DNA from: a virus
DNA length: 37,000 nt
Reading direction: 5' to 3' (one strand)
IMG/VR virus record: IMGVR_UViG_3300034375_006542
Location: 1-37,000 of that record
Positions 20,771 to 37,000 of this stretch are shown piece after piece. The position numbers and the translations under genes were made by a program. Numbering within the stretch: position 1 is the first letter of the stretch; the number at the start of each line of letters is the position of its first letter. The notes beneath the pieces are model-generated. The model ran no database searches. It saw only the letters and a list, made by a program, of their open reading frames with translations, and had not been told where the DNA came from.

Positions 20771-21862
20771 ATGGCGACAAATGCAAATATAGGAGCTCTT
20801 GGCAGTTTAAGTAAAGAAGCATATGGCTCTCTTAAATCTGGTTTTGATAGAACTAATCCAGCTTTTTCACTAGGACCACTCGATGTAACCAGAGGTCAAG
20901 TGATGAATACAATGTTAGGATTTACACCTTTCGGTGTTCCTGCACAAGTGATGAATGCATATACTTCTTATAATGCAGAAAAAGCAGCACAACAAGCACT
21001 TGGTCAGAATATAGGACTTACAGATACAGCCAAAGGAATCATGGGCTTAGGAACTACATCGCTGGACACTGCCAGAGGTATTGCTGACACTAACAAAGAT
21101 AACAAAGTATCTACAAGAGAAGCTCAGAACTTTGGTATGCAATATGGCAAGATGACTGCTTACAATGTTGGACTAAACCCAATGTCAGGCTATACGCCAA
21201 ATACTGTATCCATACAAGGTTTAACTCCATTTGGTAAAACTGATCCTGATGCTGGACTCGGTGGTATAAATACAACTGGGCAAGTGGCTGATGTTATGAC
21301 CCAACAACAAGTAGACGATATGTTTAGTGGCATTGATACTACAAGTGGTGTTACAGGTCTTGGTGGTGGTAAAGGTGCAAGTTATACTGGCATTACTAAT
21401 TTTTCACCAACAGAAGGAGTGGATACATCAGATCCAGAATCTACTGGTTCTACTGGTGTAAGTGTTAGTAATCAAAGTTATGCTGACGATGCACAAAGTT
21501 CTGGAACTGGTGGTGGTGGTGGAACATACATATGCACAGCATTATATGAAATGGGTGATATGAAAACATATATATACAAATATGATCAGATATATGGTAA
21601 ACGTGTTGATCCAGCAGTTTATAGAGGATATGAGCTTTGGGGGAAATTTTTAGCTAAACAAATTAGAAAAAAAGGTTTAACATATAAGATTGTAAAACCA
21701 TTAGCATTGGCTTGGGCTTATCAAATGGCTTATGACTTATCAAAAGGTAAAAAAGGCAGAAATAATAAACCTGTTAAAATACTTAAAACGATTGGCGAAG
21801 GAGTTTGCTATGCTCTTGGTCAAATTTTTAAAAGGAGATTCAAATGGCAGAAATCAATGTAG
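20771..21862 (+). CDS. Virion-associated protein with CTALYEMG C-terminal domain (363 aa)
   Basis: The N-terminal 250 residues are Gly/Thr/Ala-rich with low-complexity GGGKGAS and TGGGGG stretches. The C-terminal about 110 residues (YICTALYEMGDMKTYIYKYD, later YRGYELWGKFLAKQI) match a module common in phage virion proteins, where the pattern CTAL...YGYxxW recurs with unknown function. It may be an internal or ejection protein, since it sits between portal and scaffold. Confidence 0.75.
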   Translation: MATNANIGALGSLSKEAYGSLKSGFDRTNPAFSLGPLDVTRGQVMNTMLGFTPFGVPAQVMNAYTSYNAEKAAQQALGQNIGLTDTAKGIMGLGTTSLDTARGIADTNKDNKVSTREAQNFGMQYGKMTAYNVGLNPMSGYTPNTVSIQGLTPFGKTDPDAGLGGINTTGQVADVMTQQQVDDMFSGIDTTSGVTGLGGGKGASYTGITNFSPTEGVDTSDPESTGSTGVSVSNQSYADDAQSSGTGGGGGTYICTALYEMGDMKTYIYKYDQIYGKRVDPAVYRGYELWGKFLAKQIRKKGLTYKIVKPLALAWAYQMAYDLSKGKKGRNNKPVKILKTIGEGVCYALGQIFKRRFKWQKSM

Positions 21863-35302: not shown

Positions 35303-35553
35303 TGACTGATGAAAATATATTTACTTTGGATGGCAATTCATACAAAGAAGAAGATTTAGATAACAAACAGAAATATCTAATAAATCAAATTAAAGACTTA
35401 CAAGCTAAATCAGCAAGTCTTAGATTTCAATTAGATCAAGTTTCTGTCGCACAATCTAGTTTTACTAATTCATTAATTGCATCATTAAAAGAAAAAATGG
35501 AGTCAATAGACAATGCCGAAGATAACGACAATGGAAGTCAAATCGCAAATTGA
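35302..35553 (+). CDS. Coiled-coil protein, DUF6447-like (83 aa)
   Basis: FTLDGNSYKEEDLDNKQKYL, then LINQIKDLQAKSASLRFQLD and QVSVAQSSFTNSL. An LDG-xYxxxDL start followed by a coiled coil with LRFQLDQ is typical of DUF6447 (name from memory). It starts at ATG 35302 on the previous stop (TAATG). Function unknown. Confidence 0.72.
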   Translation: MTDENIFTLDGNSYKEEDLDNKQKYLINQIKDLQAKSASLRFQLDQVSVAQSSFTNSLIASLKEKMESIDNAEDNDNGSQIAN

Positions 35554-35680
35554 CACACATGAAGCAGTCTGTGCTGAAAGATGGAAAGAAACTATCTTAA
35601 GAATAAAAAGGATTGAACATATTATGATTGGCACAGCAGGAACTATGATTGTGATGATGATTGGCTTGTTGGTAAGATAA
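35513..35680 (+). CDS. XhlA-like small membrane protein (55 aa)
   Basis: MPKITTMEVKSQIDTHEAVC, a helix AERWKETILRIKRIEH, then one membrane segment IMIGTAGTMIVMMIGLLV. A cytosolic helix with HE-x-C-ER followed by a single C-terminal membrane helix matches XhlA-like lysis proteins. It overlaps the upstream gene by 41 bases. Confidence 0.72.
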   Translation: MPKITTMEVKSQIDTHEAVCAERWKETILRIKRIEHIMIGTAGTMIVMMIGLLVR

Positions 35681-35683
35681 ATA

Positions 35684-35881
35684 ATGACTGCATTTATGCT
35701 GGTTTGTTATTTAGGGATGCAAATGGAAGGTGGCATATATTTTAAAGATGTTAATGATTGTTTGTCTTATAAAAAAAGATTGCATAATCAAACAATTATG
35801 AAAGGTGAAGAAGAACAAACATATCAATGTATGTGCAAACTTATACCAAAGATAGATCCTGATAAAGTGAAGGTGTATTAA
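35684..35881 (+). CDS. Small Cys-containing protein (65 aa)
   Basis: MTAFMLVCYLGMQMEGGIYF, then NDCLSYKKRL and QTYQCMCKLIP. The hydrophobic N-terminus could be a weak signal or membrane anchor, and three later Cys could form disulfides outside the cytoplasm. That layout recalls spanin-like or periplasmic helpers, but no lipobox is seen. Unknown function. Confidence 0.62.
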   Translation: MTAFMLVCYLGMQMEGGIYFKDVNDCLSYKKRLHNQTIMKGEEEQTYQCMCKLIPKIDPDKVKVY

Positions 35882-36087
35882 TGACTGAAGATAAAAAGAA
35901 AATAATTAATTTAGATTTAAGTAATAACTCCTTTGAACTTTCCCTTAGAATACTTGGCAATGAATTTGTAGCTATAAAAATAGGATCAACTAACTTTAGT
36001 GGTAAACTTATAGCTGGTGGTATACTTATGTTATTTTTTACCTTTATGTTATTAGAAGTATTTGGTTTGCATGAGATTTTACAATGA
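35881..36087 (+). CDS. Small membrane protein (68 aa)
   Basis: A soluble N-terminal part (MTEDKKKIINLDLSNNSFEL) and one membrane helix LIAGGILMLFFTFMLLEVFG near the C-terminus. Part of the lysis cassette by position. Overlaps the next gene by four bases (ATGA). Confidence 0.68.
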   Translation: MTEDKKKIINLDLSNNSFELSLRILGNEFVAIKIGSTNFSGKLIAGGILMLFFTFMLLEVFGLHEILQ

Positions 36088-36407
36088 CAAAAAAATTAGA
36101 AAAAAACTCAAAGTTTGCTAAATTAGATACTAATGGTGATGGTGTAGTTTCAGACAAAGAGTTTGAAATGAAAGAAAAAATTATTCTTTTAGAAAACAGA
36201 GATAAAAAAGAAGACCAACAAAGATATTTAGTTTGGTTTAGTGCATTATCTGTTACATTATTTATAATTGTATTAATGACACCATTACTGCCTATGGAAA
36301 GAATTGATCATTTATCAGGCATAGCAGAGATATGGGTGTTATCTAACATGGGTGTTATTGGGTCTTTTATAGGTTTTAATCAAATGGCAAAAAGAGGTGA
36401 AAAATAA
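36084..36407 (+). CDS. EF-hand membrane protein (107 aa)
   Basis: Residues 15-26, DTNGDGVVSDKE, form a canonical EF-hand calcium loop (Asp15, Asn17, Asp19, Glu26) on the cytosolic or periplasmic head. Two hydrophobic segments follow: YLVWFSALSVTLFIIVLM (about 50-68) and IWVLSNMGVIGSFIGF (about 83-98). It lies between two membrane protein genes of the lysis cassette. It may be a holin-like or holin-control protein that responds to calcium; this is inference. Its stop overlaps the holin ATG (TAATG). Confidence 0.78.
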   Translation: MTKKLEKNSKFAKLDTNGDGVVSDKEFEMKEKIILLENRDKKEDQQRYLVWFSALSVTLFIIVLMTPLLPMERIDHLSGIAEIWVLSNMGVIGSFIGFNQMAKRGEK

Positions 36408-36912: not shown

Positions 36913-37000
36913 TGGATATTGAAATATTAAAACAACAATTAATAGAAGATGAAGGATGTAAGTACGAAATATATTTAGATCATCTGGGATATAAGACGTT
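36912..37000 (+). CDS. Endolysin, GH24 (T4-type) lysozyme, partial
   Basis: Only the first 29 residues are in the window: MDIEILKQQLIEDEGCKYEI and then YLDHLGYKT. The DEG with Glu14 corresponds to the catalytic Glu11 of T4 lysozyme, and the Y-D-x-x-GY-T pattern follows it as in that family. It degrades peptidoglycan. The gene continues beyond position 37000. Confidence 0.85.
   Translation, partial: MDIEILKQQLIEDEGCKYEIYLDHLGYKT

Follow-up and report, generated by a model that had tools for sequence, protein, structure and literature searches.

An EF-hand membrane protein encoded in the lysis cassette

The window analysed here is a stretch of 37,000 nucleotides of viral DNA (positions 1 to 37,000 of the IMG/VR record IMGVR_UViG_3300034375_006542), and its terminase, at about 77% identity, is closest to those of the Roseobacter phages CRP-901 and CRP-902. 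Near its end lie several small genes (Table 1), one of which encodes the protein P0001. A sequence-only reading of this DNA had described P0001 as a full 12-residue EF-hand loop joined to two membrane helices, encoded in a lysis cassette and overlapping the start of a holin gene. The open reading frame was found exactly at 36084-36407, and it overlaps its neighbours on both sides. The gene directly 3' matches the PF11351 model (E 2e-15, 57.8 bits against a cutoff of 24.8) as well as the PHROG holin phrog_3427 (E 2e-30), and one small ORF (36814) separates it from a lysozyme gene; the cassette location and the overlap with a holin gene, which amounts to one base at 36407, were thus both confirmed. 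P0001 shares with this holin its cassette, the gene overlap and the character of a small membrane protein, but the two belong to different families. PF11351 matched the neighbour alone, and no significant holin-family match to P0001 was found in Pfam, PHROGs or NCBIfam, one relative weakly matching Phage_holin_3_6 (E 0.024).

Table 1. Features of the EF-hand gene and of its neighbours in the window
Feature	Position	Strand	Evidence
55-aa conserved small cassette neighbour with a single hydrophobic helix at its C-terminus	35513..35680	+	ORF, neighbour comparison
68-aa protein with one C-terminal membrane helix, no family	35881..36087	+	Stop overlaps EF-hand gene start by 4 bases (ATGA)
EF-hand two-helix membrane protein P0001, 107 aa, begins MTKKLEKNSKFAKLDTNGDGVVSDKEFEMKEK...	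36084..36407	+	ORF, Pfam, AlphaFold model
EF-hand loop DTNGDGVVSDKE, 12 residues (15-26)	36126..36161	+	PS00018 match, codon selection, loop-blind searches
Predicted single long helix, residues 24-65: EF-hand exiting helix into membrane helix 1	36153..36278	+	AlphaFold, moderate confidence
Predicted helix, residues 71-105: membrane helix 2 and basic C-terminal end	36294..36398	+	K+R counts, AlphaFold
Holin-family protein, GTA_holin_3TM PF11351	36407..36814	+	Start shares 1 base with EF-hand gene stop codon
Phage lysozyme start (GH24-like endolysin), cut by window end	36913..37000	+	Homologue L002:1819-2262 matches PF00959, E 8e-10

The EF-hand loop and its selection

Positions 1, 3, 5, 6, 7, 8, 9 and 12 of the P0001 loop are occupied by D, N, D, G, V, V, S and E, and F27 follows the loop. 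It therefore presents the ligand residues D15, N17, D19 and E26, with a glycine after D19 (D-x-N-x-D-G...E), and has the oxygen ligands at positions 1, 3, 5 and 9, the hydrophobic residue at 8 and the Glu or Asp at 12 that define an EF-hand loop. When all six-frame stretches of at least 30 residues were scanned with PROSITE PS00018, this loop was the sole match in the window, 0.04 matches being expected per shuffle. Pfam EF-hand models matched residues 10-28 below their gathering scores (EF-hand_5, E 2e-4, 21.0 against 25.9 bits), as is common for lone EF-hands. A profile of the family alignment matched calmodulin and other EF-hand proteins at E values of about 2e-7 to 4e-6 over the loop and both flanking helices, and a search of the PDB with the single P0001 sequence gave no match. 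P0001 resembles the EF-hand superfamily (calmodulin, the E. histolytica CaBP) in all ligand positions, in the hydrophobic residues at position 8 and after Glu 12 and in the flanking helices. It differs in being a phage membrane protein with a single loop whose exiting helix is predicted to run into a membrane helix. With one loop per chain, P0001 departs from the usual, although not universal, pairing of EF-hands, and calcium binding by a lone EF-hand is often weak unless it dimerises.

To follow the loop through the family without bias, the searches had to be made blind to it, because some had been seeded with loop peptides; they were therefore repeated with the membrane part alone. These loop-blind searches yielded 161 loci in total, and an EF-hand-compatible loop was present in all 160 that were untruncated. 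The first set (81 loci: 79 from the membrane-part search, plus CRP-345 and CRP-810) had the loop in 80, the remaining contig beginning inside the gene. In the second, from a very divergent branch, all 80 loci had it, with Ser at position 5 in three and Asn there in many; both are usual EF-hand ligands. A strict-motif tally misplaces the register of some CRP-1-like loops (DFDVDGDG...), which alters the strict count only and not the presence of the loop. Loss of the loop among relatives, the outcome that the sequence-only reading had named as its refutation, is thereby ruled out.

The ligand positions are also the most constrained part of the loop. In an initial alignment of 26 sequences, with identity as low as 24%, only six columns were invariant, three of them loop positions 1, 5 and 12. 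Pairwise comparison of codons in 66 distinct window-group genes revealed hundreds of synonymous pair differences and zero amino-acid changes at these three positions, and the sole swap at position 3 was between Asn and Asp. The ratio of nonsynonymous to synonymous differences (N/S) in this group was 0.055 for the four ligand codons. In the remaining loop codons it was 1.22, in the 12 codons that precede the loop 1.26, and beyond the loop 0.37. Random sets of four codons from the soluble part reached 0.055 in 494 of 20,000 draws, a figure to be taken as a guide rather than a strict test because related sequence pairs are non-independent. Positions 1, 5 and 12 were equally fixed in the DC31-like group, in which position 3 alternates between ligand residues. 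Conservation of the ligand residues is thus upheld by purifying selection on their codons as well as by the loop-blind loci. A chance motif is ruled out by the uniqueness of the PS00018 match, the selection on the ligand codons and the persistence of the loop, and the sequence comparisons give good support for a real, canonical EF-hand loop maintained by purifying selection.

A 363-aa protein encoded at 20771-21862, between the portal and capsid genes, contains a further EF-hand-like loop, DTNKDNKVSTRE (at 21086). Of 14 related loci, 11 retain this loop (for example DTNKDGKVSNTE and DVNNDRNISNRE), and the protein had no Pfam or PHROG match.

Predicted topology of the protein

Hydropathy revealed two hydrophobic helices after the loop, in agreement with the AlphaFold model of P0001 (38 sequences, pLDDT 72.7, pTM 0.46, moderate confidence), whose helices span residues 24-65 and 71-105. 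A short entering helix (residues 10-14) precedes the loop (15-23), so that the loop is flanked by helices on both sides. An N-in/C-in topology was predicted from K+R counts in 245 of 245 unique family members, and this charge pattern implies that the loop should face the cytoplasm. Since one long helix is predicted to lead from the loop into membrane helix 1, a change in the loop could, if the model is correct, shift that membrane helix directly. Fold searches with the model against the PDB and viral models returned no match at E 0.001. Use of an additional start codon within the gene to make a short form without the loop, of the kind exemplified by lambda S, was considered and rejected: the ribosome-binding sites of the internal Met codons are no better than those of other codons.

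Distribution and gene neighbourhoods of the family

We confirmed 163 relatives of P0001 in viral contigs, and further searches from distant members added hundreds more. The family is large, unnamed and both marine and freshwater, with distant members in the isolates Limnohabitans phage DC31, Roseobacter phages CRP-1, CRP-9, CRP-207, CRP-345 and CRP-810, Methylophilales phage Melnitz and Pelagibacter phage HTVC008M. Cellular homologues were found at six loci, all on metagenome-assembled contigs, and these probably represent virus carry-over.

Same-strand genes within 1.5 kb on either side were counted in five sampled groups. Endolysin, spanin or holin-slot genes were present at 172 of 175 loci across four of these groups. 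The window group had a holin-slot gene at 42/42 loci and an endolysin at 33/42; the DC31 group had an endolysin at 49/49 and a spanin at 48/49; the CRP-1/9 group had an endolysin at 37/37 and a spanin at 34/37; and any lysis gene was found at 44 of 47 loci of the CRP-345/810 group. Representatives of the neighbours were identified by library as M15 and other endolysins, GH24, GH108, Rz-like spanins and PF11351; two holin-slot clusters match only PHROGs of unknown function (2524 and 6637), so 'holin' is assigned there by position. In Roseobacter phage CRP-810 the gene order is that of the window: EF-hand gene, PF11351 holin and GH108 endolysin. Together with the conservation data, these neighbourhoods give good support, at the level of sequence, for a family, widespread and so far undescribed, of small membrane proteins encoded in phage lysis cassettes.

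The fifth group, a T4-like and mixed branch of 53 loci, had hub or tape-measure genes nearby at 25 loci, lysis genes at 9 and neither at 19. In HTVC008M (AGE60355.1, L084:3959-4291) and Melnitz (gene 108, L083:4001-4330) the gene lies between gp51-like and tape-measure genes. Apart from gp67, the Melnitz paper reports no lysin-like genes; its authors propose that a curli pore acts as pinholin analogue (PMC9004378).

Two further small proteins were observed in these neighbourhoods. In many groups a tail-anchored protein of ~155 aa (cluster 1, phrog_32327, unknown function; L081:3517-3999, L086:3257-3718, L415:4326-4793) is encoded just upstream of the EF-hand gene, and CRP-902 has it too; it may be another lysis component and, in some groups, a competing holin candidate. 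The second, of ~120 aa, carries a lipobox at its N-terminus and a membrane helix at its C-terminus and is encoded next to the endolysin (L218:6276-6638, L086:4764-5105); it looks like a one-piece spanin (phrog_30566, unknown function, with a weak match to the spanin family phrog_1804).

A loop-less hairpin occupies the same slot in the nearest isolates

The isolate closest to the window by terminase is CRP-902. It carries a comparable series of small genes, with a 66-aa two-helix hairpin lacking an EF-hand just before the holin-slot gene. The family of this hairpin (CRP-902 gp43) also precedes the holin-slot gene in CRP-901 and adjoins a lysozyme gene in Puniceispirillum phage HMO-2011 and in CRP-406. 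Its gene fills the same slot, either overlapping the holin-slot or lysozyme gene or lying directly upstream of it, and it has about the same membrane part as the EF-hand protein, which is 107 aa long, but homology between the two families was undetectable (hhalign probability 0.4% for the hairpin of CRP-902/HMO-2011). Since the nearest isolates fill the slot with a loop-less hairpin, that slot can do without the calcium part. The requirement of the slot may be a membrane hairpin, on which the EF-hand version seems to elaborate by adding a sensor. A minimal hairpin at L415:3877-4077 (motif PRxMM...W.MS...SVV.GA.TG), with relatives in CRP-901, CRP-6, CRP-13, CRP-406 and HMO-2011, lies directly upstream of an endolysin or holin-slot gene in several of those phages and is likely an unannotated holin.

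A candidate calcium-responsive component of lysis

Class II-type holins, such as the lambdoid S21, have two membrane helices in an N-in/C-in arrangement. The EF-hand protein resembles them in its small size, predicted N-in/C-in hairpin and basic C-terminus and in lying beside endolysin and spanin genes; adjacency to these genes holds in four groups, whereas most loci of the T4-like and mixed branch lack it. It differs from them in its extra EF-hand domain and in matching no holin family, so that its status as a holin is that of a candidate. Among the 25 commonest PHROG families shown for genes up to three positions away, the DC31 and CRP-1/9 samples included no holin. With no known holin family found nearby, the EF-hand protein is a holin candidate in the DC31-like and CRP-1/9-like groups.

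We tentatively favour, at somewhat less than an even chance, a holin-class lysis component with an N-in/C-in hairpin that is triggered by calcium through its cytoplasmic EF-hand, with positive feedback. The protein would act as the holin where no known holin family is found nearby, and would either assist or antagonise the GTA-type holin of the window. Free calcium is far lower in the cytoplasm than outside, and a cytoplasmic EF-hand would therefore probably stay empty or magnesium-filled until the membrane leaks. Once leakage starts, calcium would enter from outside and fill the loop, and the filled loop would reorient the long helix of which membrane helix 1 is the continuation. This reorientation would promote or lock hole formation and so constitute a positive-feedback trigger of lysis. 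In its most specific form the proposal is a calcium-gated lysis switch, a hole-forming or hole-licensing hairpin that is inactive at low cytoplasmic calcium and opened by inflowing environmental calcium; we regard this form as unlikely.

The same synteny and conservation would be expected if the protein were a holin-class or antiholin protein whose EF-hand is a structural or dimerisation element, always filled with calcium or magnesium and without switching. Single EF-hands often serve dimerisation, and a loop-less hairpin can occupy the slot; the invariant Glu 12 and the canonical calcium-selective loop favour reversible binding, although a structural role is still compatible with them. We consider a purely structural EF-hand rather unlikely. 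The neighbourhoods of the T4-like relatives, in which the gene adjoins hub and tape-measure genes and not lysis genes, are a counterpoint to the favoured reading. In T4 some steps of hub assembly are membrane-associated. A protein that works at the inner membrane in assembling virions or in genome entry, such as an anchor for the baseplate hub or tail tip, would fit the proximity of the gene to gp51-like hub and tape-measure genes, seen at 25 of the 53 branch loci and in both HTVC008M and Melnitz; its lysis adjacency would then reflect only late-gene order. That role is improbable given the four other groups, in which the gene adjoins spanins, holin-slot genes and endolysins of unrelated types (M15, GH24, GH108), not tail genes.

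A recognised PF11351 holin already follows the gene in the window, which is a counterpoint to a holin role. This coexistence in the window lineage, the membrane hairpin and the predicted cytoplasmic sensor topology would suit an accessory sensor of superinfection or membrane damage, of the lysis-inhibition or exclusion type, that stands outside the hole-forming machinery and receives the calcium signals of a second infection through its EF-hand. Such a sensor seems the least probable role, since no separate known holin family is among the commonest listed neighbours in the DC31-like and CRP-1/9-like groups. As to the calcium-triggered holin-class component, the sequence evidence suggests that calcium helps decide when the host cell opens, and the calcium control of holin timing or of envelope damage raised in the sequence-only reading is an inference.

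Significance

Holins are known to be triggered by the membrane energy state and by antiholins, and to our knowledge no calcium-sensing holin or antiholin has been described. Our search of the literature on holins, lysis cassettes, cyanophages, Pelagibacter phages and prophages found neither such a protein nor a published description of an EF-hand lysis-cassette protein. Calcium-dependent endolysins, such as the phage IME-EF1 endolysin EFm1 (PMC9316690), likewise link calcium to phage lysis; calcium there concerns the cell-wall enzyme, whereas the protein described here is a membrane protein and a candidate for the holin step.

Phages of Rhodobacteraceae, Pelagibacter, Methylophilales and Limnohabitans share the family, whose calcium ligands are under selection, and this makes its role directly testable. 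The family also supplies holin candidates for phages without a known holin, such as the T4-like Melnitz, for which the curli pore stand-in was proposed (PMC9004378). If the calcium-gated switch were true, lysis would be self-amplifying through a family common to several phage groups.
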